IMG/VR virus record: IMGVR_UViG_3300025120_000217
Location: 1-35,732 of that record
DNA length: 35,732 nt
DNA from: a virus
Direction: 5' to 3' (one strand)
Positions 1 through 32,182 of the stretch are shown in pieces. Position 1 is the first letter of the stretch, and the number at the start of each line of letters is the position of its first letter. Below the pieces are notes generated by a model. That model was not told where the DNA came from and did not search any database. It saw only the letters and a list, made by a program, of their open reading frames with translations. Both the position numbers and the translations under genes were made by a program.

Positions 1-87
1 CTTACAGATCTGCCAAATAGAACAACGTACTCATTAACTTTTGAAAACGGACTGCTAGTAGATTTTAGACCTGCTGAAGAACGATAA
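1..87 (+). CDS. C-terminal end of an unidentified protein (partial at left edge)
   Basis: The first 84 bases read as an open frame of 28 codons ending in TAA at 85-87, so this is the tail end of a gene that starts outside the window. The visible residues (for example ENGLLVDFRPAEER at the end) are not enough to name a family. It lies 20 bases upstream of the fibre gene, so it may be another tail or fibre component, but that is inferred from position only. Confidence 0.55.
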   Translation, partial: LTDLPNRTTYSLTFENGLLVDFRPAEER

Positions 88-107
88 TAAATATTAAAAA
101 TAAAAAA

Positions 108-1904
108 ATGGCAATAATATATACATACCCAAGTAAAGCCGCTGCAGCGCAAGACAAGGTGTTAATATCTGATTCTGCAGATGAAAATAAAACTAAAAAT
201 GCTTCTATAGATTCAATAAGAGATGCTATAAATGTAGTTGATGTTATATCTGCTGGGTCTGGTATATCAGTTAGTAACCCAACTGGAAATGTTACTATAG
301 GTAATACTGGTGTGTTGTCTTTAATAGCTGGAAGTAATATATCTTTATCTGGATCTACTGGAAACATAACAATAAGTACTTCAGCTTCTAATGTTGATGG
401 ATCAGGAACTCCTAGAAGATTCCCACTCTGGGTTGATTCTAACACTATAGGTAATAGTAACATCTTCCAACCATTAAACTCTGGAAACATTGGTATCGGA
501 ACTACTACTGCTGCTAAGTTACTAGATGTTGAAGGTGATGTTACTTTTGGTACAGGAAATAAATTCGTAACAGGTGTAAACGTATTAGAAGGACTTGGTC
601 CAAATGGAGTTTCTTTAAGATCAGGTGTATCAAGCGCTGTTTTCCCTAGCTTTTCTAACTCAGATGATACAAATACAGGTATGTTTTTACCTGGCTTAGA
701 TGTTTTAGGCTTATCTACAGCTGGATCAGAAAGACTTAGAGTTACTTCTGCAGGTAATGTAGGTATTGGAACTACTACTCCTGGATATAAACTAGATATA
801 AATGGAGACGTTAGAGGAAATTCTCTTTGGTTCAGAGCTGATACAGCTACCGCTCCTTCAGCAACAGGAGGTTTTTATAGACCTTCTTTAGGAGATGTAG
901 CTTATGGATACAATGCTAGTGAGCTATTTAGAATAACAAGTGGTGGTAATGTAGGTATTGGAACTAATAGTCCTTCTACTAAGCTTGATGTAAACGGAAC
1001 TACTAACCTTACAAATCTTAAAATAAGTGGAGCTCAAGGTACTAATGGTCAAGTTTTAACTTCTACAGGAAGTGGTATTGGTTGGCAAACCCCTACTGGA
1101 GGTATAAGTGGAACAGCTGGTGTTGTGCCTGTTTTTGATGCTCTTGGAACTGGCATTGCAAATTCATCATTAATAACTACAGGATCTGGAAATACTCAAA
1201 CATTCCAGTTTAACACTCAAGCCGCCGTAACTTTTGATGGTACTATACTTGGTACTGAAGGAGGAACCTTTAGTAATAGTGATTTAGTAACTGAATCTAC
1301 TTCTACACTACACATAAAAGGTGCCCTTAAAGATTATGGTAACTCTACAGGAAGTCAAGGTCAAGTCTTAACTTCTACTGGAATTGGAGAAGTTCAATGG
1401 CGTCCAAATAATAATAATGGAACTATAAACGCAGGTTGCGCAAGCGTAGGATCATCTTCTAATATTGCATCTAACCCAAGACAAGCTTCTTTTACTTTTC
1501 CTAACGAAGTTGGATCATCTAATTTTGGACCATGTATTCCAATAATGGCTCCTTTAACAGTACAGTTGATAGCAATTAAATGGAATGGTGCTAACGCCCC
1601 TGTAATAGGTGCTAACGGAACTGTTAATTTTAAGTTAGGTAAATTAACTAGCAGAACTGGTGTTCCAGACACGCAGGAAGGCACTGTCAACTATACTAAT
1701 CTAGTTGATTTAACAGGTTTACAAATTACATCTGCAGATTCTGGAACTTGGATATATAAATTCATGAATTTATCTGGTGCTGGAGCCACTTACGTAGCTC
1801 AAGATATAATGGTTCTACTTTTTCCAAGACCAACAACAGGATGGACAGGTACTGGAGCCACTAATGGAGACTTGCAAGTAACCATGCAAGTAGCATATGC
1901 ATAA
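108..1904 (+). CDS. Tail fibre / receptor-binding-like structural protein
   Basis: A 598-residue protein rich in Gly, Ser, Thr and Asn, with low Lys and Cys, as in beta-rich phage fibres. It carries three imperfect copies of a motif GN(V/I)GIGT followed by (K)LD(V/I)NGD, near residues 125, 216 and 280, and two copies of GQVLTSTGxG(x)xW near residues 310 and 420. The GIGTxxP...LDVNG repeat is common in phage tail fibres and collar or appendage proteins. The C-terminal 170 residues look like a separate globular domain that could bind a receptor. I see no clear S74 intramolecular chaperone domain at the end, which many fibres with this repeat have. The start at 108 follows an A-rich leader. The chaperonin genes lie a little downstream, so this protein is one possible folding client. 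Fibre is well supported; receptor binding is inferred. Confidence 0.75.
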   Translation: MAIIYTYPSKAAAAQDKVLISDSADENKTKNASIDSIRDAINVVDVISAGSGISVSNPTGNVTIGNTGVLSLIAGSNISLSGSTGNITISTSASNVDGSGTPRRFPLWVDSNTIGNSNIFQPLNSGNIGIGTTTAAKLLDVEGDVTFGTGNKFVTGVNVLEGLGPNGVSLRSGVSSAVFPSFSNSDDTNTGMFLPGLDVLGLSTAGSERLRVTSAGNVGIGTTTPGYKLDINGDVRGNSLWFRADTATAPSATGGFYRPSLGDVAYGYNASELFRITSGGNVGIGTNSPSTKLDVNGTTNLTNLKISGAQGTNGQVLTSTGSGIGWQTPTGGISGTAGVVPVFDALGTGIANSSLITTGSGNTQTFQFNTQAAVTFDGTILGTEGGTFSNSDLVTESTSTLHIKGALKDYGNSTGSQGQVLTSTGIGEVQWRPNNNNGTINAGCASVGSSSNIASNPRQASFTFPNEVGSSNFGPCIPIMAPLTVQLIAIKWNGANAPVIGANGTVNFKLGKLTSRTGVPDTQEGTVNYTNLVDLTGLQITSADSGTWIYKFMNLSGAGATYVAQDIMVLLFPRPTTGWTGTGATNGDLQVTMQVAYA

Positions 1905-2312: not shown

Positions 2313-3857
2313 ATGGAAGAAATAAAGTTAGTTAAAAATCTGGCTTTTGGTGATATTGCCAGAAGTCAGATATTAACTGGTGTTGAGAAACTTACTAATG
2401 CAGTAAGCTCAACTCTAGGAGCAAGTGGTAAATGTGTTATATTAGAAGATTCTAATGGAATGCCACAAATAACAAAAGATGGAGTAACAGTAGCTAATAG
2501 CATAACGCTACAAGATCCTCTAGAAAATATTGGAGCAACGCTTATAAAACAAGCTGCTCAAAGAACAGTTACAGAAGCTGGAGATGGCACAACTACAGCA
2601 ACCGTGTTAGCAAAAGCTATACTAGACCAAGCTACAGAACATTCTCTACTAGATAATCCAAGAGAAATGAAGTTAGGTATTGATTCAGGTGTTGAAAAAG
2701 TTATAAAATATTTAGATAAAAAATCTAAAAAAATATCTGGTAAAAAAATTGATCAAGTAGCTACTATATCATCTAACAATGATGCTTTTTTAGGTAAAAC
2801 AATAGGTGAAGCTTTTAGAATGGTGGATGAAACAGGAGTAGTCATAATGGAGATAAGTGAAAAAGCTGAGACAAGTGTTACTTTAACAGAGGGAGTACAG
2901 TATGTTAAACCTTTATTAAATACTCACTTTATAACTAATCAAGAAGTAGGAACTGCAGAATTAGACAATCCATTGGTACTAGTAGTAGAATCAAATATAG
3001 ATTCTATAAGAAAAATACAACCAATTCTAGAGCATTGTATAAAAAATAATAATAGCTTATTGATAATAGCAGACGTAGACACGCAAGTCATGAATGCTTT
3101 AGCTATGAACAAAGTTAAAGGAAATATAAAAGTTAATATAATAGGCGCTCCTACATTTGGTTTAAATAAAAAAGAAATTCTTAGTGATTTATGCTCTTTG
3201 ACTGGAGCTACACTTATAAATGAAGACCTAGGAGATGATATGGATATAATACAACCTGAACACTTAGGTTATTGTTTAAAATCTATATCAGGTAGAGAAG
3301 ATACTATATTAAAAGTTGATTTAACTGACAATAAAGAAGTTAAAAATAAAATTACCCTTCTTGAAGGTTATTTAAAAGACCAAAAAAATCCTAATCAAGT
3401 TATAAGAACTGAAAAAAGATTAGCTATGTTAAAAGCTAAAGTTGCAACAGTTAAAGTTGGAGCTAATTCTGAAATAGAATTAAAAGAAAAAAGAGATAGA
3501 GTAGAAGATGCTATTTGTGCTACAAAAGCCGCAATTAAAGAAGGCATAGTGCCAGGAGGTGGTATAGCTTTACTAAATGCAAGTTTTAATTTAAAACCAA
3601 CATGTATAGGCGAAGAGGTATTGTATCAAGCGATAAGAAGACCTTATGAATTAATATTAAAAAATGCAGGTATAGATAAACTTGAAAAACTTGAAGAAGG
3701 TAAAGGATTAGACGTGGTTACAGGAAATACGGTAGATATGGTAAAAGCCGGAATTATAGATCCTTTATTGGTTACTAAAAGCGCTTTAAGAAATGCGGCT
3801 TCAGTAGCTACTACTATATTGTCAACTGATTGTGTAATAAATAATATTAGAGCATGA
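2313..3857 (+). CDS. groEL: Phage-encoded GroEL-like group I chaperonin (Hsp60/Cpn60)
   Basis: A 514-residue chaperonin with equatorial, intermediate and apical regions in the normal order. ATPase signatures are present: TKDGVTVA at 54-61, GDGTTTATVLA at 90-100, RVEDA with the catalytic Asp at 399, PGGGIAL at 414-420 and IIDP at 481-484, matching E. coli Asp52, Asp87, Asp398 and Asp495. It should bind ATP and fold client proteins in the host cytoplasm. Unusual points: it ends right after the last equatorial strand and has no Gly-Gly-Met tail; the TLGP nucleotide loop reads TLGA (34-37); the near-invariant DRGYxSPYF of the substrate/GroES-binding face is replaced by VKPLLNTHF (198-206); and the hinge pair GG (E. 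coli 374-375) reads AK (375-376). The leader is AT-rich without a Shine-Dalgarno. The gene overlaps the GroES-like gene by 4 bases, implying coupled translation. The family is certain; activity and client are inferred. Confidence 0.95.
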   Translation: MEEIKLVKNLAFGDIARSQILTGVEKLTNAVSSTLGASGKCVILEDSNGMPQITKDGVTVANSITLQDPLENIGATLIKQAAQRTVTEAGDGTTTATVLAKAILDQATEHSLLDNPREMKLGIDSGVEKVIKYLDKKSKKISGKKIDQVATISSNNDAFLGKTIGEAFRMVDETGVVIMEISEKAETSVTLTEGVQYVKPLLNTHFITNQEVGTAELDNPLVLVVESNIDSIRKIQPILEHCIKNNNSLLIIADVDTQVMNALAMNKVKGNIKVNIIGAPTFGLNKKEILSDLCSLTGATLINEDLGDDMDIIQPEHLGYCLKSISGREDTILKVDLTDNKEVKNKITLLEGYLKDQKNPNQVIRTEKRLAMLKAKVATVKVGANSEIELKEKRDRVEDAICATKAAIKEGIVPGGGIALLNASFNLKPTCIGEEVLYQAIRRPYELILKNAGIDKLEKLEEGKGLDVVTGNTVDMVKAGIIDPLLVTKSALRNAASVATTILSTDCVINNIRA

Positions 3858-4114
3858 AAGCAGTAGGCAAATACATAGTAATAAAACCTCTTGAAGAACA
3901 AAATGTAAAGACCGAAGGTGGTTTGATATTAGGGGAAAAACAAAGAGAAGATATAAGATTCAGGCAGGCTTTAGTAATAGAGCCTGGTTCTGATGTTAAA
4001 GTTTTAAAAAAAGATCAAATAATATATTATGATCAAAATGCTGGGTTTGGCATAGAGATAAATAATAAAAAATTAAAAGTTATAAAAGAATTCGACGTTG
4101 TCGTAATACTATAG
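3854..4114 (+). CDS. groES: GroES-like co-chaperonin (Hsp10/Cpn10), phage-encoded
   Basis: An 86-residue protein, about 11 shorter than E. coli GroES. The N-terminal strand KYIVIKPLEE aligns with the GroES RVIVKRKEVE strand, and the mobile loop with GGLIL (22-26) matches the GGIVL that docks on GroEL. The C-terminal part (KLKVIKEFDVVVIL) matches the final GroES strands. The roof hairpin segment is much reduced, as in phage co-chaperonins such as T4 gp31. It should cap the GroEL-like ring encoded just upstream, or the host ring. Its ATG lies inside the upstream gene's end (ATGA overlap), so the two are probably made together in a fixed ratio. The order groEL then groES is the reverse of typical bacterial operons. 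Confidence 0.88.
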   Translation: MKAVGKYIVIKPLEEQNVKTEGGLILGEKQREDIRFRQALVIEPGSDVKVLKKDQIIYYDQNAGFGIEINNKKLKVIKEFDVVVIL

Positions 4115-4116
4115 TT

Positions 4117-5157
4117 ATGGGTAGAACAAGAAAAGGTGGTAAATTTAAAGGTGGTCCTTTTGCTGAAACGTTTAAGACGGGTTTAGCTATGAAATCACCA
4201 TTTAACGTTGTTGTAGCAGGTGAATCTACATCTCCAGAAGCTGATGCTAAAGCAGCACAAGATAAAGCAACCCTTTCGCCTGACGATAAGGATATAGTAG
4301 ATACAATAGATGACAAAAGACAAGAAAAGTTCGGAAGAGCAGAAGTTGATGCTTTTATGCAAAGAAAAAAATTAGCTGAAGAGCAAGAAGCTGCTGAGGC
4401 AGCCAAAAATGCAGCTGCAGCTGAAGCGGAAAAAGAAAAAGAACCAACTGAAGAAGAAAAGAAAGATGCTGCTTCTACAACAGGAGGTGATTTAAATCCT
4501 GAAGAAACAAAAGGAGGAGCTGATCAATCATACACTGATGACTATACAGGTGATATGACAAATAAAGAGATAAGAAAAGAAAATAGAGAAAATAAGAAAG
4601 AGATAAGACAAACAGCTAGAGAACAAAAGAAAGACGCGAGAGATGATTTTAAAGATAGAAAGAAAGATGCAAAAGAAACTAAGAAAAACACTAAGAAAGA
4701 TTTAAAAGATAAATTAGCAGCTGGTGAAATTACCAAAGATGAATTTAAAGCTGGTAAAAAAGATGCAAGAGTAGATAAAAGGGCTGAAAAGAAAGATGCT
4801 AGAGTAGATAAAAGAGCTGATAAAAAAGACGCGAGAAAAGATAAAAAAGCAAATAAAAAAGATAATAGGCAACAGAAAAAAGCAACTAAAAGAACAACTA
4901 GAGCAAATAAAAGATCTACTAAATTAATTGCTAAAGGTAAAACTGACAAAGCAAAGAAGAAAACAGACAAGGCAGCTGCTAAAAACTTAAAGAAAACTAC
5001 AAAGCAAACAACTAAGGCAGTTAAGAAGCAAACAAAAATAGCAAATAAAGCTACTAAAAAAGCTGATAAAAAAGATTCTAAAGCTACTAAAAAAGCTGGT
5101 AGAAAAGATAAAAGAGCAGCTAAAAAATCCAAAAGAAAAAATAAAAGAGGAAAATAA
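4117..5157 (+). CDS. Lys-rich protein with 11-residue repeats, possible DNA-condensing or virion protein
   Basis: A 346-residue protein in two parts. Residues 1-148 begin with a Gly-rich basic start (MGRTRKGGKFKGGPF), then a stretch rich in Ala, Glu and Asp. From 149 to 268 it is built of about eleven units of 11 residues (one of 10), such as KKDARVDKRAE and KKDARVDKRAD; 11-residue periodicity is typical of long straight helices or coiled coils. One unit (LKDKLAAGEITKDEFKAG, about 196-213) resembles the short SHOCT-type motif. From 269 to the end it is a Lys/Thr/Ala tail like linker histone H1. The charge suggests nucleic acid binding, perhaps DNA packing in the head or binding to host nucleoid or RNA, but this is inferred. 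It starts 2 bases after the GroES-like gene and so is likely in the same operon. Confidence 0.7.
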   Translation: MGRTRKGGKFKGGPFAETFKTGLAMKSPFNVVVAGESTSPEADAKAAQDKATLSPDDKDIVDTIDDKRQEKFGRAEVDAFMQRKKLAEEQEAAEAAKNAAAAEAEKEKEPTEEEKKDAASTTGGDLNPEETKGGADQSYTDDYTGDMTNKEIRKENRENKKEIRQTAREQKKDARDDFKDRKKDAKETKKNTKKDLKDKLAAGEITKDEFKAGKKDARVDKRAEKKDARVDKRADKKDARKDKKANKKDNRQQKKATKRTTRANKRSTKLIAKGKTDKAKKKTDKAAAKNLKKTTKQTTKAVKKQTKIANKATKKADKKDSKATKKAGRKDKRAAKKSKRKNKRGK

Positions 5158-10665: not shown

Positions 10666-10876
10666 AAAAATAAGCGTAGGCGTTGACTATAAAAACGAAG
10701 CAATGCATTATTCTTTAGGTCAAGAAGTTTATGGTGGTCATATTATTAATGATATAATTTTTAAAGAAAAAGACAATTCTTATAATATTTTTATAATTAA
10801 AAATAAAGAAGTTTTGCCTTGGAAAAAGTTTAATTCAAATATGGCTATATCTGTAGAATATGATTTAAAATATTGA
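10652..10876 (+). CDS. Conserved small phage protein, unknown function
   Basis: A 74-residue soluble protein with RKISVGVDYKNEAMHYSLGQEVYGG, then a beta-rich region (INDIIFKEKDNSYNIFIIKN) and a KKFNSNMAISVEY end. Short proteins with this signature recur in marine phages in my recollection, and sit near the terminase genes. It overlaps the coiled-coil gene by 14 bases and shares one base with the next start (TGATG), so translation is probably coupled. No domain or activity is recognised. Confidence 0.62.
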   Translation: MSIIRKISVGVDYKNEAMHYSLGQEVYGGHIINDIIFKEKDNSYNIFIIKNKEVLPWKKFNSNMAISVEYDLKY

Positions 10877-11469
10877 TGAATAGTTTATATAATTTTATTG
10901 TTAAACCTTTTGAAGAAAGATATAGCAATGAAAAAAAAATAGGTGATAAATCTCTTATTGTAAACACTCAAATATCAAATCATCAATTTGTTAGTAAAAA
11001 AGCTGTAGTTGTTTCAACACCTGCAGCTTATAAAACTAAAGTAAATATAGGTGACGAAGTTTATATACATCATAATATATTTAGAAGATGGTATGATCAA
11101 AAAGGTAGAGAGCGAAATAGCTCTAGTTACTTTAAAGAAGATCTTTACTTTGTTTCACCAGAACAAATTTATATGTATAATCTAAAACCACATTTAGATT
11201 ATTGCTTTATAAAACCTATAATTAACAGCAATAAACTAGATAACATTAAAGAACAACCTAATGTTGGTATAGTAAAATACATAAACAGCTCTTTAAAAGC
11301 CATAGGAATAGCACCTGGAGAGCTTATAACGTTCACACCTAACTCTGAATTTGAGTTTATTATAAATGGTGAGCGACTCTATTGTATGAAATCAAATGAT
11401 ATAGCTTTAACGCATGAATACCAAGGAAACGAAAAAGAAAATAATCCAAGCTGGACACAAGGCTATTGA
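10876..11469 (+). CDS. Tandem GroES-like protein (second co-chaperonin candidate)
   Basis: A 197-residue protein that appears to hold two Cpn10-like beta-barrels. Barrel 1 (1-103): FIVKPFEER (7-15), a loop with GDKSLIVN (23-30) in the mobile-loop position, then KAVVVSTPAAYKTKVNIGDEVYIHHNIF (42-69), which matches the GroES block xGxVxxVG...VKVGDIVIFNDG. Barrel 2 (104-185): DYCFIKPI (108-115), VGIVKYINSS (130-139), GIAPGELITFTPNSEFEFIINGERLYCMKSNDIAL (144-178), matching VGDIVIF...NEEVLIMSESDILA. Barrel 2 has no GGIVL-like tip. I recall similar proteins next to terminases in marine phages, annotated as co-chaperonins. The ATG at 10876 is chosen; an in-frame TTG sits one codon upstream. It could cap the phage GroEL ring, cap the host ring, or be a structural protein that has reused the fold. 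Confidence 0.68.
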   Translation: MNSLYNFIVKPFEERYSNEKKIGDKSLIVNTQISNHQFVSKKAVVVSTPAAYKTKVNIGDEVYIHHNIFRRWYDQKGRERNSSSYFKEDLYFVSPEQIYMYNLKPHLDYCFIKPIINSNKLDNIKEQPNVGIVKYINSSLKAIGIAPGELITFTPNSEFEFIINGERLYCMKSNDIALTHEYQGNEKENNPSWTQGY

Positions 11470-11689
11470 AGAACTTATTAAGGTGGCAAAAGAAAAGATT
11501 GTAGACTCAGACGACGATGTAAGCGCTGATAGATTAAAAAATGCTGCCGCAACTAAGAAGTTAGCAATAATGGATGCTTTCGAGATATTAACCAAGATAC
11601 AGTTAGAGGAAGATATATTAAATGAAAAACCTAAAGAAGTTAAATTAGAAAAAACATTTAAAGGTTTTGCTGAAGGGAGAAGTAAATGA
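11414..11689 (+). CDS. Candidate small terminase subunit
   Basis: A 91-residue protein, almost all helical, with KKKIIQAGHKAIEELIKVAKEKI, then DVSADRLKNAAATKKLAIMDAFEILTKIQLEEDIL and a GFAEGRSK end. It sits directly before TerL and overlaps it by 4 bases (ATGA), where small terminases usually lie, and small helical proteins of this shape precede TerL in marine phages as I recall. No helix-turn-helix typical of TerS is obvious, so DNA recognition is inferred. The gene overlaps the upstream co-chaperonin-like gene by 56 bases, an unusually long overlap; no later Met would give a plausible shorter protein. Confidence 0.5.
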   Translation: MNTKETKKKIIQAGHKAIEELIKVAKEKIVDSDDDVSADRLKNAAATKKLAIMDAFEILTKIQLEEDILNEKPKEVKLEKTFKGFAEGRSK

Positions 11690-13908
11690 TTTACGAACAA
11701 ACTCTTTGGAAAGAAATTAAAGACATTATAAATCCTCAAATTTTAAAAAAACAAAATCGTTTAAAAAAATGGGAATATGGTTATAATGTAGAATATGATT
11801 TTATAGTAATAAGTAAAACTGGAAAAATTGGACAAGTCATTGAAATACAAAATCTCAGGATTGCTTTACCAGCAGAGCATGAATCGTTTAAACGAGGCAA
11901 AAATAAAGAAGATCAATATTGGGAAAGATTTGAATATCCAAAAGAACTTAAAAGAATAAAAAGTAGATTTGATTGGGAAGAATATTCATCTGAGTTTAAG
12001 GAAGAGTGGTATGATTATATTGATAAAGAATTTAATAGAAGAGATCAAGGCTTTTGGTTTTATAATAAAGGTGAACCTGCTTATATTACTGGTTCTCATT
12101 ACATGTACTTACAATGGTCAAAAATTGACATTGGAGCACCAGAGTATAGAGAGTCAAATAGATTATTCTTTATATTTTGGGAAGCATGCAAAGCGGATAG
12201 TAGATCTTACGGAATGTGTTACCTTAAAAACAGACGATCTGGATTTTCATTCATGTCTTCTGCAGAACTCGTTAACCAAGCAACAATATCATCAGATGCA
12301 AGATTTGGTATACTATCTAAATCAGGGGCTGATGCAAAGAAAATGTTTACGGATAAAGTTGTCCCAATATCAGTCAACTATCCTTTCTTCTTTAAACCCA
12401 TTCAAGATGGTATGGACAGGCCGAAGACTGAATTGGCATATCGTATTCCGGCATCAAAACTTACTAGAAGAAAGCTTGAAAGCAATGAGCAACTAAAAGA
12501 ACTTGATGGGCTTGACACAACTATTGATTGGAAAAACACAGGAGACAACTCTTACGATGGTGAGAAATTAAAAATATTAGCACACGACGAAAGTGGAAAA
12601 TGGGAAAGACCGGACAATATATTAAACAACTGGAGAGTTACAAAAACAACACTAAGGCTAGGATCAAGAATCGTAGGCAAGTGTATGATGGGCTCAACTT
12701 CAAACGCATTAGATAAAGGTGGAGACAACTTCAAAAAATTATACGACAATTCAAACGTTGAAAAAAGAAATAAAAACGGACAAACAGCTTCTGGACTCTA
12801 TTCTTTCTTCATACCTATGGAATGGAACTACGAAGGGTTCATGGATACTTTTGGATCACCTATATTCATTGGAGGAAAAAATCCAATCAAATCAATCGAC
12901 GGTTCTACAATTACTACGGGAGTCATACAGCACTGGGAAAATGAAGTCGAAGGATTAAAACATGATCAAGACGCTTTAAACGAGTATTACAGACAATTTC
13001 CAAGAACTGAAAAGCATGCGTTTAGAGATGAAACAAAAGATAGTCTATTTAATTTAACTAAGATATACCAACAAATAGATTACAACGAAGAAGCAAACCA
13101 AAAAGTAAGTGTTACTTCTGGTAACTTTCAATGGATTAATGGAATTAAAGACACTCAGGTTATTTTTTATCCAAATACAAAAGGTAGGTTTAAAGTATCT
13201 TGGGTTCCACCAGTTGGTTTACAAAATAAAGTAATATTAAGAAATGGAGTTAAATACCCAGGTAATGAACATATTGGAGCTTTTGGCTGTGACTCTTACG
13301 ATATTAGCGGTACTGTTGATGGTAAAGGCTCTAAAGGAGCACTACATGGACTAACTAAGTTTAGTATGGAAGATGCACCACCAAACCATTTTTTCTTAGA
13401 ATACATAGCTAGACCTGAAACCGCAGATACTTTTTTTGAAGATATGCTGATGGCTTGTGTATTTTATGGTATGCCTATACTTGCTGAAAACAATAAACCA
13501 AGACTATTGTATTATTTCAAGCGTAGAGGTTACAGAGGTTTTAGTATAAATAGACCTGATAAACTTTATAATAAACTTTCACCAACAGAAAGAGAGATAG
13601 GTGGAATACCTAATACTAGTGAAGATATAAAACAAGCACACGCAGCTGCGATAGAGTATTATATAGAAACTTATGTTGGGGCTTTACAAAATGGTTATGG
13701 AGATATGTATTTTCAGAGAACATTAGAAGACTGGTCTAGATTTAATATAAATGCTAGAACTAAACATGATGCTTCTATTAGTTCTGGATTAGCTATAATG
13801 GCTTGTAATAAAAACAAATATAGGCCTATACCATTAAAAAAACAAAAAGAAATTAATCTAGGAATACGTAGATTTAATAACGAAGGATCTACTTCACAAA
13901 TAATATAA
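11686..13908 (+). CDS. terL: Terminase large subunit (ATPase and nuclease of DNA packaging)
   Basis: A 740-residue terminase. The region GFWFYNKGEPAYITGSHY (122-139) is the adenine-binding block typical of TerL; the Walker A region (181-190, KNRRSGFSFM) is present but degenerate, without the usual GKT/S; Walker B is LKILAHDE (295-302) with Asp301 and Glu302; GSTSN (336-340) is the coupling motif. The C-terminal RNase H-like nuclease has Asp536 in GAFGCDSYD and His694-Asp695 in TKHDAS. It drives ATP-dependent filling of the capsid through the portal and cuts the DNA. It overlaps the candidate TerS gene by 4 bases and is followed 3 bases later by portal. The family is secure; the odd Walker A is noted separately. 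Confidence 0.9.
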   Translation: MIYEQTLWKEIKDIINPQILKKQNRLKKWEYGYNVEYDFIVISKTGKIGQVIEIQNLRIALPAEHESFKRGKNKEDQYWERFEYPKELKRIKSRFDWEEYSSEFKEEWYDYIDKEFNRRDQGFWFYNKGEPAYITGSHYMYLQWSKIDIGAPEYRESNRLFFIFWEACKADSRSYGMCYLKNRRSGFSFMSSAELVNQATISSDARFGILSKSGADAKKMFTDKVVPISVNYPFFFKPIQDGMDRPKTELAYRIPASKLTRRKLESNEQLKELDGLDTTIDWKNTGDNSYDGEKLKILAHDESGKWERPDNILNNWRVTKTTLRLGSRIVGKCMMGSTSNALDKGGDNFKKLYDNSNVEKRNKNGQTASGLYSFFIPMEWNYEGFMDTFGSPIFIGGKNPIKSIDGSTITTGVIQHWENEVEGLKHDQDALNEYYRQFPRTEKHAFRDETKDSLFNLTKIYQQIDYNEEANQKVSVTSGNFQWINGIKDTQVIFYPNTKGRFKVSWVPPVGLQNKVILRNGVKYPGNEHIGAFGCDSYDISGTVDGKGSKGALHGLTKFSMEDAPPNHFFLEYIARPETADTFFEDMLMACVFYGMPILAENNKPRLLYYFKRRGYRGFSINRPDKLYNKLSPTEREIGGIPNTSEDIKQAHAAAIEYYIETYVGALQNGYGDMYFQRTLEDWSRFNINARTKHDASISSGLAIMACNKNKYRPIPLKKQKEINLGIRRFNNEGSTSQII

Positions 13909-13911
13909 TGC

Positions 13912-16344
13912 ATGAAACAAATTTCAAATACATATAGTTCTTTTCCTGACCAGGTAGTTTCCGACGAGATAAAGAGTAGCATGGAATATGGCAAGCAAGT
14001 TGGTCAAGCTATAGAAGGTGATTGGTTTAGTGGCACTAGAAATGGTATTGAAAATAGATTTAATACAAATTTCAATAATTTTAGAACTCGTAGACTGTAT
14101 GCTAGAGCTGAGCAACCGGTAGAAAAATACAAATCTGAATTAGCTATAAATGGAGATTTATCTTACTTAAACTTAGATTGGAAGCCAGTTCCTATAATAC
14201 CTAAATTTGTTGACATAGTTGTTAATGGCATGGATAATAAGCTTTATGATATAAAAGCATTCGCTCAAGATCCTGAGTCTAGAAAAGTGAGATCTAGATA
14301 TGCCGATGATATAATAAGAGACATGGAGTCAAAAGATTTTATAAATAATATAAAATCAACTATAGGCGTAGATATGTTTAATAGTTCAAATCCAGAAGAA
14401 CTTCCTGAAAACAAAGAAGAACTAGACTTACATATGCAACTTAGTTATAAGCAAGCTTCTGAAATAGCTTGTGAAGAGGCAATAAACAACTCATTAGAAT
14501 ACAATAAATATGATTTAACTAAAAGAAGGATTATAGAAGATTTAGTTGTAATAGGTATAGGAGCTTGTAAAACAGACTGGAATAGATCAGAAGGAGTTAC
14601 CGTTGAATATGTTGATCCATCTCGTATGGTACATTCATATAGTGAAGATCCAAATTTTGAAGACTTATGGTACGTTGGAGAAATAAAACCAATATCATTA
14701 GCTGATTGTAAAAAACAATTTCCTAATTTAACAAATGAAGAATTAGAAAGATTAGAACAGTACCAAGGTAATAGTAGTTTTTTATATAATTATAATGGAA
14801 GAAGAGATGGAAATTCTATTTATATAATGTACTTTGAATATAAAACATACAGTGAGCAAGTATTTAAAATTAAAAAAACGGCCACAGGATTAGATAAATC
14901 TTTAGAAAAACCAGATACTTTTAATCCGGAAGAAAATGACAATTTTGATAGAGTCAGTAGATCAATAGAAGTTTTATACAGCGGTGCTAAAGTGTTAGGT
15001 TATGATATGATGCTTAAATGGGAGATGGCTAAAAACATGACTAGACCAAAATCTAATTTAGTTAAAGTTAACATGAACTATAATTTATGTGCACCTAAAC
15101 TTTATAATGGTAGAGTTGAATCGCTGGTTAGTAGGATGATGGGTTTTGCAGATATGATACAACTAACTCATTTAAAGATACAACAAGTAATTTCTAAAAT
15201 AATACCAGATGGTGTTTATTTAGATGTAGATGGATTAGCAGAGGTTGATTTAGGTAATGGAACTAATTATAACGCTAAAGAAGCTTTAAACATGTATTTC
15301 CAAACAGGTAGTATTCTAGGTAGATCCATGACTACAGAAGGAGATCCCAACAACGGCAGAATACCAATACAAGAATTAGTAAAAAGTGATGGAGGCGGTA
15401 AAATAAATTCTTTAATAAGTACTTATCAATATTATCTACAAATGATAAGAGATGTTACTGGACTTAATGAAGCTAGAGATGCTAGTGTACCAAACTCAGA
15501 CTCATTAGTTGGTTTACAAAAGCTAGCTGCTGCCAATTCAAATGTAGCAACAAAGCATATACTAAATAGTTATTTATATTTAACTATAAAAACTTGTGAA
15601 AATATAGTTTTAAGAACTGCTGATAGTATTGAATTTGCTTTAACAGAAGAAGCTTTAAAAAATAGTATATCTACTTGGAATGTTGGTCAACTTAACGATA
15701 TATCTCAAATACATTTAGCTGATTTTGGTATATACTTTGATTTAGTTCCAGATGAAAGAGAAAAAGAACAACTAGAAGCTAACATACAGGTTGCACTGCA
15801 AAGTGGTAGTATAAACCTGGAAGATGCTATAGATATAAGACAAATAAAAAACTTAAAATTAGCTAATCAAATGATTAAGCTAAAACGTAAAAAAGCTGCT
15901 GAAGCCGCTCAAGCCGCTTCAATGGCTAATATCGCTGCTCAAGGTGAAGCTAACGCAAAAGCTAGTGAAGCTGCCGCAATGTCTGAAGTTCAAAAACAAC
16001 AAGCTATATTAGATACTAAACTTAAGTTTGAAAAAGGTAAATCAGGTTTTGAAATAGAAAAAATGAGAGTTGAATCTCAAATGAAAAAAGATTTAATGGA
16101 ACTTGAGTTTAATTATAACATGCAGTTAGGGCAACAAAAAATAAATAAAGAAGGACAAAGAGAAGCTGATATAGAAACCAGAAAAGACGAAAGAGCTAGA
16201 ATAGTAGGTACTCAACAGAGTGCAATGATAGACCAAAAGAAAAACGATCTATTACCAATAGATTTTGAAAAACCAGATGCAGGAAGTGATGTTCAACCAT
16301 TGAGTGGTATTAGTAATCCACCTTTAGCACCTGAAATTATGTAA
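13912..16344 (+). CDS. Portal protein
   Basis: An 810-residue protein directly after TerL. The core region has the mix of helices and an EYVDPSRMVHSY block plus YNGRVESLVSRMMGFADMIQLTHLKIQQ stem-like helices, and a DVTGLNEARDAS block that is typical of large portal proteins in short-tailed phages. It forms the dodecamer through which DNA is packed and ejected, and binds TerL and the connector. From about residue 658 the C-terminus is a long coiled coil rich in Lys, Ala, Gln and Glu (KRKKAAEAAQAASMANIAAQGEANAKASEAA and onward), as in P22-type barrel domains extending into the head. Length is close to that of portals of P22 and crAss-like phages. Assigned mainly by position, length and layout. 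Confidence 0.78.
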   Translation: MKQISNTYSSFPDQVVSDEIKSSMEYGKQVGQAIEGDWFSGTRNGIENRFNTNFNNFRTRRLYARAEQPVEKYKSELAINGDLSYLNLDWKPVPIIPKFVDIVVNGMDNKLYDIKAFAQDPESRKVRSRYADDIIRDMESKDFINNIKSTIGVDMFNSSNPEELPENKEELDLHMQLSYKQASEIACEEAINNSLEYNKYDLTKRRIIEDLVVIGIGACKTDWNRSEGVTVEYVDPSRMVHSYSEDPNFEDLWYVGEIKPISLADCKKQFPNLTNEELERLEQYQGNSSFLYNYNGRRDGNSIYIMYFEYKTYSEQVFKIKKTATGLDKSLEKPDTFNPEENDNFDRVSRSIEVLYSGAKVLGYDMMLKWEMAKNMTRPKSNLVKVNMNYNLCAPKLYNGRVESLVSRMMGFADMIQLTHLKIQQVISKIIPDGVYLDVDGLAEVDLGNGTNYNAKEALNMYFQTGSILGRSMTTEGDPNNGRIPIQELVKSDGGGKINSLISTYQYYLQMIRDVTGLNEARDASVPNSDSLVGLQKLAAANSNVATKHILNSYLYLTIKTCENIVLRTADSIEFALTEEALKNSISTWNVGQLNDISQIHLADFGIYFDLVPDEREKEQLEANIQVALQSGSINLEDAIDIRQIKNLKLANQMIKLKRKKAAEAAQAASMANIAAQGEANAKASEAAAMSEVQKQQAILDTKLKFEKGKSGFEIEKMRVESQMKKDLMELEFNYNMQLGQQKINKEGQREADIETRKDERARIVGTQQSAMIDQKKNDLLPIDFEKPDAGSDVQPLSGISNPPLAPEIM

Positions 16345-17530: not shown

Positions 17531-19003
17531 ATGAGTTTTAATACAGGTGGGAGTTTTCCCGCATCGATAGTTCCTATGCCAAATCAAGTAGTTGTACAAG
17601 ATAATTATATCGACTTCAACAACTTGGCTAACGGTCAATGGGCACAACAATATCTACCTGAGCTTTATGAGCAAGAAGTAGAGAGATACGGAAACAGGAC
17701 TTTGTCTGGTTTCTTGAGAATGGTAGGCGCTGAAATGCCTATGACATCTGACCAAGTTATTTGGTCTGAACAAAATAGATTACACGTAGCTTATAACAAC
17801 GCAGCTGTTGTTGCTGTTGGTGGTACTGCTGATGTAACAGTAACAATCACTCCAGGTGCTGGTAACCCAGCTACTTCAGGTATTAGAGTTGGTAACACAA
17901 TTTTACTTTCTGATAATGCTACTGGATTAGTTACTGCTAAAGCTTTAGTTACAGCTTCAAACGCTTCAGGTTATACTTTAACTTGTGAGCTATACGAAAC
18001 TACTGCTGCTGCTTTACCAGTTGCTATTAGTGGTGGAACTTGTAGCTTATTTGTTTACGGTTCTGAATTTCCTAAAGGAAGTAACGGAATGGTTGGAGCA
18101 ATCGAACCAGGTGTTACTACTTTTACTAATTCACCAATTATCTTAAAAGATAATTACGAATTAAGTGGTTCTGATGCTGCACAAATTGGATGGATCGAAG
18201 TTGCTACTGAAGACGGTACTTCTGGATACTTATGGTATCTAAAAGCTGAGTCTGAAACTAGACTAAGATTTGAAGATTATATGGAGATGTCAATGGTTGA
18301 AGGTGAGTTAATGGCTAACGCTGCTACTCCTTTTGGAGCTCAATTCACACCAGGTGGTGCTGCTCAAAACATCAAAGGTACTGAAGGTTTATTCGCTGCT
18401 ATCGAAGCAAGAGGTAATGTATACTCTGGTTTTGCTGGTGCGGCTGCTCCTGGTTCAGGTGCTTTAGGTGATTTTGATACTATCCTAAAACAATTAGATA
18501 AGCAAGGTGCTATTGAAGAAAATATGTTATTCTTATCAAGATCTACGGCTCTTGATTTTGATGATATGCTAGCTGCTGTTAACGGTGGATTTGCTTCTAC
18601 TCAAGCTGCATCTTACGGTTTATTTGACAACGAAGCTGAAATGGCTTTAAACTTTGGTTTTTCAGGTTTTAGAAGAGGTTCTTATGACTTCTATAAGACT
18701 GACTGGAAATACTTAAACGATGCTACTACAAGAGGTTTATCTAATGCCATTGATGGTGTTATGATACCAGCTGGTACATCTACAGTATATGATCAAATGT
18801 TAGGTTCAAATATCAGACGTCCTTTCTTACACGTAAGATTTAGAGCTTCTGAAACTGAAGACAGACGATTCAAAGCATGGATCACTGGATCTGTTGGTGG
18901 TGCTTACACTACTGATTTAGATACAATGAGAGTCAATTTCTTATCTGAAAGATGTTTAGTTACACAAGCTGCTAATAACTTCGTGTTATTCAAAGGAGCA
19001 TAA
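17531..19003 (+). CDS. Major capsid protein
   Basis: A 490-residue protein after portal and scaffold, as in the usual late order. It opens with an N-arm (PNQVVVQDNYIDFNNLANGQWAQQYLPELYEQEVERYGNRTLSGFL) and has a long beta-rich insertion (about 95-175), then conserved-looking helical blocks (GTEGLFAAIEARGN, FDTILKQLDKQGAIEENMLFLSRSTALDFDDMLAA) ending in an Arg-rich segment (RRPFLHVRFRASETEDRRFKAW). This fits an HK97-fold capsid protein with an inserted surface domain. Codon use is noticeably enriched for GCT/GGT, as expected for the most strongly expressed gene. It forms the head shell, and is the leading candidate client for the phage chaperonin. It precedes a small gene and a strong terminator. 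Confidence 0.85.
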   Translation: MSFNTGGSFPASIVPMPNQVVVQDNYIDFNNLANGQWAQQYLPELYEQEVERYGNRTLSGFLRMVGAEMPMTSDQVIWSEQNRLHVAYNNAAVVAVGGTADVTVTITPGAGNPATSGIRVGNTILLSDNATGLVTAKALVTASNASGYTLTCELYETTAAALPVAISGGTCSLFVYGSEFPKGSNGMVGAIEPGVTTFTNSPIILKDNYELSGSDAAQIGWIEVATEDGTSGYLWYLKAESETRLRFEDYMEMSMVEGELMANAATPFGAQFTPGGAAQNIKGTEGLFAAIEARGNVYSGFAGAAAPGSGALGDFDTILKQLDKQGAIEENMLFLSRSTALDFDDMLAAVNGGFASTQAASYGLFDNEAEMALNFGFSGFRRGSYDFYKTDWKYLNDATTRGLSNAIDGVMIPAGTSTVYDQMLGSNIRRPFLHVRFRASETEDRRFKAWITGSVGGAYTTDLDTMRVNFLSERCLVTQAANNFVLFKGA

Positions 19004-27356: not shown

Positions 27357-29315
27357 ATGGCTCAAAACGTATTACCTTTAATTGAAATAGACTATTACAA
27401 TTGTATTTGGAATAAGAGAATTTTAACACCACAAAGTGATATACAAACTTCTACTGGCACAAGTAGTGTACCAGTTGCTGTGGTCCCAGGTGGTACAGGC
27501 GTCAACGCTAATAATGTATATCCTTTAGGCAATGTTTACGCTGCTCCTTTTACAGGCGCAACTAGTGATGGTGTACCTACTTCTACAGTAGTAAACAACT
27601 CTTGGAATGGACAACTTGTTCCACAACCAAGAATACAAGTTTCAGGTTCTCTTGTTAAAGAAAATATGTACATAGAAGAGTCTAGAATTAGAGGAGGTTT
27701 TGGAAATGTACAAATGGACTTAGGTGTTAGAGCTTACCTAGATGAAGAAGATCCAATACAACAACATAGGTTTAATACTTTAATATATTCTGGTATTTAT
27801 AATTCTAGGACTGGTATAAATAGAACTAATGAATTTCCTATAGGTACAAACATAAGTAGATCTGCTAATCCTCAGTATAATGCTATACAAAAAATATATG
27901 CTGAAGAAAATAATTTAGTAGTTCTACAAGAAGATAAATGTAGCAGATGTTTGATAGATAAAAATGCTATTTACAACGCTGAAGGTGGTGGTAATGTAAC
28001 AACTTCTAATCAAGTTTTAGGAGAAATAGTTCCTTATACCGGAGAGTACGGAATAAGTAAAAACCCCGAAAGCTTTGCTATCTATGCAAATAGAAAATAT
28101 TTTGTAGATAGACATAGAAATGCTGTTTTAAGACTATCTAACAATGGAATAACAGAAATATCTGAATATGGTATGAGAGACTATTTTAGAGATCGTTTAG
28201 CGCCATTAAATGATAATTATACAAACGAATTTACTAAGCAAATACCTACCATAAACACCTTATCCGCCATTAATGATCCAGTCGCTCTTTTACCAGCTAG
28301 TGGTAGTGTATTATTTCTTCCACTTGGAAGTGTAGGAACTAAAAGTCAATACAATATAGGTTCTAAGGTTTTTTGGTCTCAAGATTCTGGATCTAGTTAT
28401 ATAGATACAGGAGCTACAGTTAGTAGTATTGGCCTAGATGTAACAGGTACTTATGATGTTATGTTTTTATCAAGTAATATAGGTTCTGGTTTTTCAAATG
28501 TAACAGCATTAGATGCTAGAATAAGACTAGTTAGTAAATACAGAAGTTTAATACCATCTGGTTGGGATGCTTATAACAAACAATATGTAATATCTATACA
28601 ACCTAATAATTCAACTCTTGATAATACTTCTGGAGTTGTTAAAAGAGACTCTACATATTTTACTTTAGGATTTGATGAGGCAATAAATGGATGGCCTAGT
28701 TTTTATACTTATAGACCTGGTTTTTTAGGAAGTTTAAAATCTAGTTTTTTTACTATAAATAACTGGGTTTGGAATGGTAGCTCTTATATTGTAAATGGGT
28801 TATATCAGCATTACAATGTTAATTCTGCTAGAGGTAATTTTTATGGAATAAATAATCCATCTACAATTAAATTTGTAGCTAACTCACAACCATCAACTCA
28901 AAAAGTTTTTCTTTCAATAGGGTACGAAGGAGCTAGTGGATGGAAAATAACATCAGCAGATTCTGATCAAACTGGTAGTTCTTTAAAATACGATAATTCA
29001 GGAAATTTAACTGGTCAATGGTATAATTTCTTTGATTCTTCATCTTTAATATATAGCTATGAAGAAGGAGCTTATGTTGATTTACCTACTTCTCAAGTAT
29101 TAAGGGCTGGTTTTGATAGAAAAGAAAACAATTATGTAGCTAATTTTGTTAACAACTCACCTGTAAATCCAGGAGAAATTGTATTTGGTAATCAAGTATC
29201 TGGATTAAAAGGTTATTACTTAGATGTAACAATGTCTACAGATGGTGTTACTGATCCGGGAGCTATGAAAGAATTGTATGCTGTTAATTTAAATTATAAT
29301 GTTTCAAATTTTTAA
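27357..29315 (+). CDS. Tail structural protein, conserved in marine phages
   Basis: A 652-residue protein following the nozzle gene. It has IEESRIRGGFGNVQMDLGVRAYL near residue 105, then NNLVVLQEDKCSRCLIDKNAIYNAEGGG (about 185-212), GEYGISKNPESFAIYANRKYFVDRHRNAVLRLS (about 232-264) and ITEISEYGMRDYFRD. This run looks like a beta-propeller repeat and is one I recall from tail proteins of marine phages. Residues 410-600 are rich in Trp, Tyr, Asn and Gly, possibly another beta domain. It may complete the nozzle or bind fibres. The promoter-like motif D (27341-27356) sits 1 base before the ATG, so any transcript from it would be nearly leaderless. Confidence 0.6.
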   Translation: MAQNVLPLIEIDYYNCIWNKRILTPQSDIQTSTGTSSVPVAVVPGGTGVNANNVYPLGNVYAAPFTGATSDGVPTSTVVNNSWNGQLVPQPRIQVSGSLVKENMYIEESRIRGGFGNVQMDLGVRAYLDEEDPIQQHRFNTLIYSGIYNSRTGINRTNEFPIGTNISRSANPQYNAIQKIYAEENNLVVLQEDKCSRCLIDKNAIYNAEGGGNVTTSNQVLGEIVPYTGEYGISKNPESFAIYANRKYFVDRHRNAVLRLSNNGITEISEYGMRDYFRDRLAPLNDNYTNEFTKQIPTINTLSAINDPVALLPASGSVLFLPLGSVGTKSQYNIGSKVFWSQDSGSSYIDTGATVSSIGLDVTGTYDVMFLSSNIGSGFSNVTALDARIRLVSKYRSLIPSGWDAYNKQYVISIQPNNSTLDNTSGVVKRDSTYFTLGFDEAINGWPSFYTYRPGFLGSLKSSFFTINNWVWNGSSYIVNGLYQHYNVNSARGNFYGINNPSTIKFVANSQPSTQKVFLSIGYEGASGWKITSADSDQTGSSLKYDNSGNLTGQWYNFFDSSSLIYSYEEGAYVDLPTSQVLRAGFDRKENNYVANFVNNSPVNPGEIVFGNQVSGLKGYYLDVTMSTDGVTDPGAMKELYAVNLNYNVSNF

Positions 29316-30430: not shown

Positions 30431-32170
30431 ATGAGTTACAAAAACCCCTCAAGAATAATAAATAGGCAAGCTCAAGCAATACAAGCTGGTGGTGAAAGAA
30501 TACAAAACCAAGTATTAGAAACAGCAGGCGAGTATGCTGCAGGCGTTGCATTGCAAAAAAAACAATTAGAAGAATTAGAGGAAGAGAATGTACAATTAGA
30601 GTCTAACCTGATTGATAATGCTAATAGTGCTACAAAAAACTGGAGTGGAGCAGATCAAGAAGTAGTTGGTCTTTTTGATGGTTTAATAGACCAAAGGATG
30701 GAGATTAAAAGATTAGTTGATCTTGGGCCTAAACGTGGTGGTATATCGAAAAGAGATGGAATGCTTAGAACAAAAGAAATAGAGGGTGCTCCTGAACAGT
30801 TTGCTGCCGAAGCAAAATACATAGCTGGTCAAGTCCAAGACTATGGAGCTGCATTAAATGATTCGTCTTTGTCTTCTATTGGATCTGTAGAAACTAAAGC
30901 AGTATTAAATGCTTTGCATCAAAAGCAAGATGTTAAAATACATAGAGAAGGAGGAGAGTTCTTTTATTATCTTCCTAAAAAAGATGCAAATGGTAACTTA
31001 TTACCTTGGCCAGATAATGAAGGTAAGCTAAATGGAACTGTATTAATGGATAAAGCTGCAGAAGGAAAAGATTTATTTTCTAAAAAACAAGATATAAGTG
31101 GAGTTATAGATCTAGCCTGGGAAAAAAATAATGAAGCTGAACTAGGAGATCTTGGTGAATATATAAAAGAAGAAGTAGTAAGAAACGGATCTATACATCC
31201 AGTCACTGGAGAGGTTATAGAGATGGAAGAAGGTTATGAGCAAGTTATAACTCTACCTAGAACTGATAATAGAGATAAATACATTGAGAAAGTAGAATCA
31301 AGCTCTATGCTTACTCCTTTATTAGGTGACCAGAAAAAAATGTTAAGTGTTTGGCAAGATACTATAGATGATGGAGAAGAAACTGGAGTAGACCCTGTAA
31401 CTGGTAGTAAAATATACACACCTAATAGTTTAGGTTCTTTTGCTCAAGAAGGAAATGAATTAGGCATTAGTTTAACTGATATGGGGTTAACAATGGATCA
31501 ATGGCAAAATTCTGTATATGGTGAATACCCAACTGGTATAGGTGATGATCAAAAAGCTTTAATACAACAAAACCAATCTAAAGCAGCTAAAAGATATATG
31601 GCTAATTTATCTTGGGATAAAAACTCTCTAGCAGCTGGAGGCCACTCAAGTAGTGGAAAAAGAAAAATAGTTGAAAAAGCTGAACCTAACTCAAGTACTA
31701 AGCGTACTTTTAAAGGAGAAGGTGGAAAAGATTATTCAAATACAGAAACTAATAACATAAGAGCAGGTATTGCAGCTGAAAATAAAATTATAAAAGATTT
31801 TGAATATGTTACAGATGCTACTGAAGATAGCACTCGAGAAGAAAAAATGGCTTCTCTTCAATCTAAAATTAAAGCTCAAGCAGATGTTGATGACATGCTT
31901 GGTCCAGATGTTATTACAGTAAGTGACTATGATAATAAAGATGAATTAATAGAAGCAATTGCTAGAGTAAAACTTGAAGGTGATAAATCTGTTAAAAATT
32001 ATGACACTTATAAAATTGGTAGAGATGATTATCAAAAATTTAATTCTGGAAATAAACCAAATATGCCTCAAGAAGAGTTTAACAAAAAATATGCAGCATT
32101 AGCTCCTGGAGAATCCTTTGTCGCAATGGTAAATGGAAAGCTACAAAAAATCAAAAAACCAAAGTCTTAA
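30431..32170 (+). CDS. Internal virion protein candidate
   Basis: A 579-residue acidic, helix-rich protein. The first 60 residues are a Gln/Glu/Ala coiled coil (QAQAIQAGGERIQNQVLETAGEYAAGVALQKKQLEELEEENVQLE); then mixed helices, and a Gly/Ser/Lys-rich part near 400. It has no Cys, no membrane span and no catalytic motif. Its position between the gp14-like protein and the giant right-edge protein matches the second internal core protein (T7 gp15 position), which would enter the host periplasm with the DNA. No homologue is recognised by sequence, so the role is inferred from gene order. Confidence 0.55.
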   Translation: MSYKNPSRIINRQAQAIQAGGERIQNQVLETAGEYAAGVALQKKQLEELEEENVQLESNLIDNANSATKNWSGADQEVVGLFDGLIDQRMEIKRLVDLGPKRGGISKRDGMLRTKEIEGAPEQFAAEAKYIAGQVQDYGAALNDSSLSSIGSVETKAVLNALHQKQDVKIHREGGEFFYYLPKKDANGNLLPWPDNEGKLNGTVLMDKAAEGKDLFSKKQDISGVIDLAWEKNNEAELGDLGEYIKEEVVRNGSIHPVTGEVIEMEEGYEQVITLPRTDNRDKYIEKVESSSMLTPLLGDQKKMLSVWQDTIDDGEETGVDPVTGSKIYTPNSLGSFAQEGNELGISLTDMGLTMDQWQNSVYGEYPTGIGDDQKALIQQNQSKAAKRYMANLSWDKNSLAAGGHSSSGKRKIVEKAEPNSSTKRTFKGEGGKDYSNTETNNIRAGIAAENKIIKDFEYVTDATEDSTREEKMASLQSKIKAQADVDDMLGPDVITVSDYDNKDELIEAIARVKLEGDKSVKNYDTYKIGRDDYQKFNSGNKPNMPQEEFNKKYAALAPGESFVAMVNGKLQKIKKPKS

Positions 32171-32182
32171 ATAAAAAATAAT

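Follow-up and report, generated by a model that had tools for sequence, protein, structure and literature searches.

A reversed groEL-groES pair accompanied by a tandem Cpn10 in a lineage of aquatic phages

Does a virus that carries groEL directly followed by groES bring a folding machine of its own, where did that machine come from and which proteins would it serve? Textbook phages mostly use the chaperonin of the host or bring a lid only. The locus lies in the IMG/VR virus record IMGVR_UViG_3300025120_000217, a linear record of 35.7 kb whose whole length (35,732 nucleotides, hereafter the window) was analysed. The features of the window are listed in Table 1.

Table 1. Features of the window, with the basis of each assignment
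Feature	Positions	Strand	Basis or remark
Tail fibre-like protein	108..1904	+	598 aa; PHROG 9942, E 1.2e-13; upstream of groEL-groES
groEL (Cpn60), group I chaperonin	2313..3857	+	514 aa; Pfam, NCBIfam and PHROG matches; residue table
ATGA overlap of groEL stop and groES start	3854..3857	+	Read from sequence, agcATGAaag
groES (Cpn10)	3854..4114	+	86 aa; Pfam PF00166, E 5.2e-9; PHROG 3188, co-chaperonin GroES
Tandem Cpn10 (Cpn20-like)	10876..11469	+	197 aa; PHROG 13932, co-chaperonin GroES, E 1.7e-21; AF2 model; hhalign
Terminase large subunit	11686..13908	+	PHROG 6681, E 1.7e-164; 63% identity to ctfjg026
Portal protein	13912..16344	+	PHROG 6547, E 9.6e-127
490-aa virion structural protein	17531..19003	+	PHROG 13704, 'virion structural protein', E 5.3e-93

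The window is a member of a large aquatic phage lineage near Elemovirus, Callevirus and Maribacter phage Panino, and the record covers part of a genome of roughly 60 kb. Identities of the terminase large subunit were 63%, 45-46%, 43% and 38% to Podoviridae sp. ctfjg026, Elemovirus, Panino and the Cellulophaga phages, respectively, and the portal and structural genes also matched these phages. The lineage is very common in aquatic viromes (at least hundreds of IMG/VR contigs), and GroEL has at least 80 close relatives in IMG/VR at 64-92% identity, with a sister set at 60-67%. Since the hosts known for the lineage are Flavobacterium, Cellulophaga, Maribacter and Tenacibaculum, the host of the window is probably a marine flavobacterium. 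No tRNAs were found within the window. In a 652-aa protein (27357-29315), a match above the cut-off to the crAssvirus muzzle C-terminal domain (PF25729, E 1.3e-8) links the tail of the lineage to Crassvirales, and a long open frame of more than 1,100 codons (32183-35732) runs off the end of the window and corresponds by position to the 11.6-kb gene of ctfjg026.

Both open reading frames of the pair are intact. GroEL matched a full-length, three-domain Cpn60 profile (Pfam PF00118, Cpn60_TCP1, E 1.1e-55 over residues 27-511, 188/190 bits), the NCBIfam GroEL models (best E 4e-134) and PHROG 5725 (chaperonin groEL). The score against the NCBIfam model PRK00013 passed the cut-off (443 against 397 bits), and the 441 bits against the equivalog TIGR02348, below the cut-off of 582, fit a divergent member. 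The ATPase residues are as E. coli D52, D87, T89-T91, D398, G414-G416 and D495, and were kept in all 71 members of the window clade tested. An earlier note, made from the sequence alone, had claimed a full-length Cpn60 with all ATPase motifs, and profiles and residues agree with it, the sole exception being P33 of E. coli, which is replaced by A in the first ATP motif (TLGASG); Panino, phi38:1 and 71/71 members of the clade share this replacement. GroES scored 36.5 bits against PF00166, past the curated cut-off of 21.1, and its mobile loop carries GGLIL, as the same note had read and the alignment bore out, with a hydrophobic triplet of the IVL type that is kept across the clade (L25 100%, I26 92% and L27 98%). 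The dN was 0.047 and the dS 0.43 between GroEL and its nearest relative, and dN was well under dS for groEL, groES and the tandem Cpn10 gene. The phage encodes a full and apparently functional GroEL and GroES.

The TGA of groEL (3855-3857) overlaps the ATG of groES (3854-3856), so that the claimed order of groEL then groES with an ATGA overlap could be read directly. Among the viral loci with both genes detected, groES was located 3' of groEL in 185/187, a count that includes repeated contigs and does not stand for 187 independent events; in bacterial loci groES was located 5' of groEL in 75/75, and the order of the window, which had been called the reverse of bacterial operons, occurred in 0/75. 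The 4-base overlap was the commonest junction (90 of the 185 viral loci), other overlaps were found in nearly all of the rest, and groES was missing from only one of the 80 closest loci (L067), at a contig end. Conservation in nearly every related locus and a dN of GroEL far below the dS put the pair far beyond what chance would produce. It is real, but not peculiar to this phage, the reversed arrangement being typical of a large lineage and already annotated. The order of groEL then groES is annotated in GenBank for Elemovirus (68 records) and ctfjg026, and Cellulophaga phage phi38:1 and the Flavobacterium immuto phages have annotated matched pairs that are arranged otherwise, in the immuto phages with the bacterial gene order. 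These annotated pairs are nearer than T4 gp31, RB49 CocO and the chaperonins of EL and OBP, with which the locus had been compared, and the GroEL-GroES pair itself is a divergent form of a pair already known. In several Vibrio and crAss-like phages, a GroEL is present with no groES called alongside. Three bases past groES starts a Lys/Ala-rich repetitive protein of 346 aa (4117-5157) with low-complexity repeats such as KKDARKDK, and its gene could be on the same transcript as groES.

GroEL is about 40% identical to its best bacterial matches, which are those of Flavobacteriaceae, and likewise to its best annotated phage matches. In a GroEL tree of 82 rows, the window clade received full support and lay outside the bacteria, set apart by a stem of 1.2 changes per site, and all six related viral groups lay together as one side of a branch (support 96), several of the rows having long branches. 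Grouping with Flavobacteriia was 42.6 log units worse, yet was not rejected (AU p 0.111), and the viral GroEL may be of ancient flavobacterial or Bacteroidota origin. The GroES tree (94 columns) did not separate phage from bacterial lids with confidence (support 52/0). A recent copying of the pair from the operon of a flavobacterial host might be read from the best bacterial matches and from the unrejected grouping, but an identity of merely 40%, the fully supported viral clade on its long stem and a gene order absent from the bacterial loci make such a copy extremely improbable, and the pair as a recent host passenger was discarded on the same grounds of identity, gene order and deep viral clade. 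The outcome that the earlier note had named as decisive against it, trees placing both proteins inside one host operon, was not seen for GroEL, which forms a well-supported viral clade. Elsewhere, the GroELs of Bacteroides phage DAC16 (L431) and Vibrio phage pv27 (L432) branch inside bacterial groups, as host captures would, so phage GroELs were acquired several times; a small ORF before the GroEL of DAC16, labelled hypothetical, matches GroES.

The positions compared in the apical groove, by which the client and GroES are bound, were Y199, Y203, F204, L234, L237, L259, V263 and V264. In the window F204 and L237 are kept, and L234Q, V264M, V263A, Y203H and Y199L are changed. The altered groove (L234Q, V264M, Y203H and Y199L, at positions where bacteria are nearly invariant) suggests a ring that may be matched to its own lid. 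These changes bear on a reading of the pair as a module for stress or host takeover, which would replace or supplement the host GroEL and GroES and have no dedicated phage client. The ordinary ATPase core would suit such a module, T4 gp31 and CocO replace GroES in host folding (PMC3012670), and some phages with a GroEL are without an adjacent GroES. However, the groove changes are fixed across the viral clade (L234Q and V264M, 100% each), and the lineage-wide stability of the pair with structural genes fits dedicated viral clients better; we regard a module of this kind as quite unlikely.

The C-terminal GGM tail is absent from the window GroEL, and the median length beyond E. coli K526 is 0 residues in the viral clade, whereas the tail is GG-rich in 76/80 bacterial GroELs. 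The ring-ring contacts are changed: the window and 71% of the clade carry E in place of R452, the residues corresponding to E. coli 462-467 and E434 are missing, and the contact helix is shortened, all of this within a gap-rich and hence uncertain stretch of the alignment. A single GroEL ring is possible, judging from the altered and deleted contacts; as proof of single rings, the altered interface was rejected on account of the gaps. In phage EL a loop replaces helix alpha-Q and the rings separate with ATP (PMC7185714), and the ring-ring changes of the window, in their uncertain part of the alignment, resemble it. The window GroEL might then act mainly as a lid-free single ring like the chaperonin of OBP or AR9, with groES as an accessory, and the lost contacts as well as the precedent of EL speak for this. 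Against it, groES is always kept beside groEL and is under purifying selection, the chaperonins of EL, OBP and AR9 are far less closely related and lack a groES beside them, and the gap-rich alignment makes the loss of contacts itself uncertain, which leaves a lid-free ring rather improbable.

The lid is altered as well. The mobile-loop segment of GroES has 22 residues (19 in E. coli), the roof segment has 11 (20 in E. coli) and the roof hairpin is absent; at the position of Tyr71, which is aromatic in 99% of bacterial GroES, the window clade has A, S or N. A short roof as a purely viral trait was considered and rejected, as some bacterial GroES are also without a roof (minimum 11).

The claim that the phage brings a complete folding machine held in that GroEL and GroES are both encoded, but it missed a third component, the tandem Cpn10, whose gene lies just upstream of the terminase gene. 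Recognition of this protein needed relatives, profiles and structure; Pfam gave only a sub-threshold match to domain 2 of the window protein. Domain 1 (about aa 1-104) holds a mobile-loop-like segment at aa 12-39 with LIV at 27-29, and in domain 2 (about aa 105-181) the mobile loop is deleted. The AF2 model has two barrels (mean pLDDT 78, pTM 0.71), and the best PDB matches of the full model by Foldseek were chains R and Q of 7ekq (E 3e-5, TM 0.57), chain R being named 'Cpn20 co-chaperonin subunit', followed by GroES structures; VIA-align against 7ekq_Q gave Z 10.3 over 151 residues (model 1..180). When domain 1 was folded alone (pLDDT 87), the top Foldseek match was a Cpn10 with a probability of 1.00 but an E of 5.6e-3, and the top 15 in the Z ranking were all Cpn10 (Z 8.3 to 6.6), with unrelated folds at 5.5 or below. 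By hhalign, domain 2 matched bacterial Cpn10 at 97% (E 1.8e-11) with a gap in place of the mobile loop, and domain 1 matched phage GroES at 77%. Direct hhalign of domain 1 against domain 2 gave no signal, and an internal duplication is therefore proposed from fold and not from sequence. The loop of domain 1 is a low-confidence segment of 27-31 residues in which L/F-I/V-V/I/L was found in 40/40 proteins, a near-complete conservation. Two Cpn10 folds thus lie head to tail, as seen in the full model and in both domains, and the mobile loop is present in domain 1 only; because it is missing from domain 2, the architecture is described as Cpn20-like and the protein is not filed as a Cpn20. A phmmer search of PDB sequences found no Cpn20 (best match a NUDIX hydrolase, E 0.064), and a kinship with Cpn20 may exist all the same. 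The relatives in phi19:3 (gp101) and phi38:1 pass the Pfam Cpn10 cut-off and are named Cpn10 or GroES by their depositors, so that the label is already known, while the recognition of two domains appears to be new; the literature searched yielded no account of a tandem Cpn10 in a phage, which is weak evidence, subscription papers lying outside the search.

Co-occurrence of the three genes was determined in 41 related records, chosen through one of the three genes or the terminase: GroEL, Cpn10 and tandem Cpn10 were found in 39/41, 40/41 and 40/41, respectively, and all three in 35/35 of the long IMG/VR contigs tested. None of the three was found in Gundel_1. Cellulophaga phage phi19:3 (NC_021789) has a single and a tandem Cpn10 (32116-32370 and 45084-45686), and a GroEL match was not found there. 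The tandem protein is therefore not tied to a phage GroEL, which suggests that the co-chaperonins may also work with a host GroEL, in the manner of gp31, or that the tandem protein may have a different function. A search for the tandem protein across 296 genomes from the host order and 198 from the phylum gave one match, in the set of the order; as it lies beside a terminase 72% identical to that of the window and the GroEL of the bin is elsewhere, it is a phage contig. This contig of the lineage (contig 11 of genome G297, loci L437 and L439) was binned with a genome of the Flavobacteriales set, possibly as a host hint or as a contamination.

The constant neighbour of the tandem gene is the terminase large subunit. 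The tandem protein might be read as a head or packaging factor, for example a terminase partner or an assembly scaffold, in which the Cpn10 fold is merely kept and no lid is formed. Its place directly before the large terminase gene in all relatives, the loss of the GroEL-binding loop from domain 2, its persistence in phi19:3 and the sub-threshold Cpn10 similarity of the window protein are what such a factor would predict, but domain 1 still has a long, flexible loop in which a hydrophobic triplet resembling the IVL of GroES is conserved, gp101 of phi19:3 exceeds the Pfam cut-off, and the Cpn10 of T4 works with the host GroEL alone, which explains phi19:3. A pure packaging role is conceivable but on balance doubtful. 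An ORF of 91 aa (11414-11689) overlaps the end of the tandem gene and abuts the terminase, a small ORF occupies the equivalent place in ctfjg026 and phi19:3, and this ORF is a candidate small terminase.

The same set can be recognized in cultured and sequenced relatives. Elemovirus (vB_FspP_elemo, e.g. NC_055853) resembles the window in having groEL then groES, with a 1-base overlap, a terminase 46% identical and, directly before it, a 180-aa 'co-chaperonin GroES' (gp30), on whose tandem nature the annotation is silent; it differs in a GroEL of 37% identity and in a pair on the strand opposite to the structural genes. In ctfjg026 (MW202828, circular, 60.8 kb, Manatee Spring), which has the closest terminase, groEL is likewise followed by cpn10 and the tandem protein is present, but labelled hypothetical; its GroEL is 35% identical and the overlap is longer, with the groES start inside the end of groEL. 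Both phi38:1 (Callevirus) and Panino share with the window a GroEL, a single Cpn10 and a tandem Cpn10 next to the terminase, but phi38:1 has Cpn10, one gene and GroEL in the bacterial order, and in Panino one small gene separates GroEL from a Cpn10 labelled hypothetical. GroEL and GroES homologues have both been reported for Panino (PMC11590407).

Taken together, we consider it probable that the lineage encodes a three-protein, virus-specific group I chaperonin, consisting of a GroEL ring, its own GroES lid and a tandem Cpn10 made with the packaging and head genes. GroEL and GroES would be produced from one message, coupled through the ATGA, and GroEL would form heptameric rings and bind non-native phage proteins. 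Upon ATP binding, the phage GroES would cap the ring and the client would fold in the chamber, which the missing GGM tail, the missing roof hairpin of the lid and the longer mobile loop may each enlarge or open. The tandem Cpn10 could dock on the GroEL ring via the single loop of domain 1 and serve as an alternative, additional or mixed lid used in head assembly. The chaperonins of EL, OBP and AR9 work without a co-chaperonin (PMC9598537), which speaks against this model in that a lid is no necessity for a GroEL of a phage; they are phage-encoded GroEL homologues like that of the window, but they are far more divergent, whereas the window GroEL comes with its own GroES.

In chloroplasts, single Cpn10 and Cpn20 have been proposed to combine into seven-domain lids (PMC5780408). 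The phage encodes both types and might do likewise, though each tandem protein would offer a single loop. Chloroplast-type Cpn20 (Chlamydomonas 7ekq, Plasmodium cpn20) resembles the phage protein in having two Cpn10 domains head to tail and, as in the phage set, is accompanied by a single-domain Cpn10 (PMC5780408), but domain 2 of the phage protein is without a mobile loop and sequence similarity is not detectable; the likeness is one of architecture, and the phage protein more probably arose by a fusion of its own. A compound lid for the phage GroEL formed by both co-chaperonins, which would be a Cpn20-type lid invented independently by viruses, is unlikely, although two versions can be drawn: three tandem proteins and one single Cpn10 would give seven domains, or seven tandem proteins would stack their loopless second domains as a second tier and give a taller chamber for head proteins.

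For the three-protein chaperonin, the machine most likely serves the phage's own proteins, among which the major capsid protein and the fibre would be candidate clients. The earlier note had placed a 490-residue major capsid protein and a fibre nearby; matches to structural and tail-fibre families were found, and the identity of the 490-aa protein, about 54 kDa as estimated by size, as the major capsid protein is only probable, judging from its family match. In T4, gp31 has a loop of 22 against 16 residues, no roof and a chamber 8% larger, which suits a capsid protein of 56 kDa (PMC6318259), and a larger chamber for the T4 capsid protein has also been described elsewhere (PMC3012670). T4 gp31 and RB49 CocO resemble the window GroES as phage Cpn10s with a longer mobile loop and no roof (PMC6318259), and they differ in that no phage GroEL accompanies them, only single-domain forms exist and the sequences are barely related. 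The gp31-like lid and the candidate capsid protein of similar size form a suggestive parallel to T4.

The set of three, in which a one-loop tandem Cpn10 is the putative double lid, appears undescribed. A lineage that brings a ring, a lid and a double lid would allow the chaperonin to be studied as a freely evolving, virus-owned system, in which, unlike in phages that bring a lid only, ring and lid could co-evolve. With the lid changes and the missing tail, the idea that phages enlarge the folding chamber for the capsid protein becomes testable in a second, unrelated system, and one loop per two domains bears on the question from chloroplasts of how an even number of Cpn10 domains is accommodated on a ring of seven-fold symmetry. 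The cultured relatives with known hosts (Elemovirus, Callevirus and Panino) make such testing practical.
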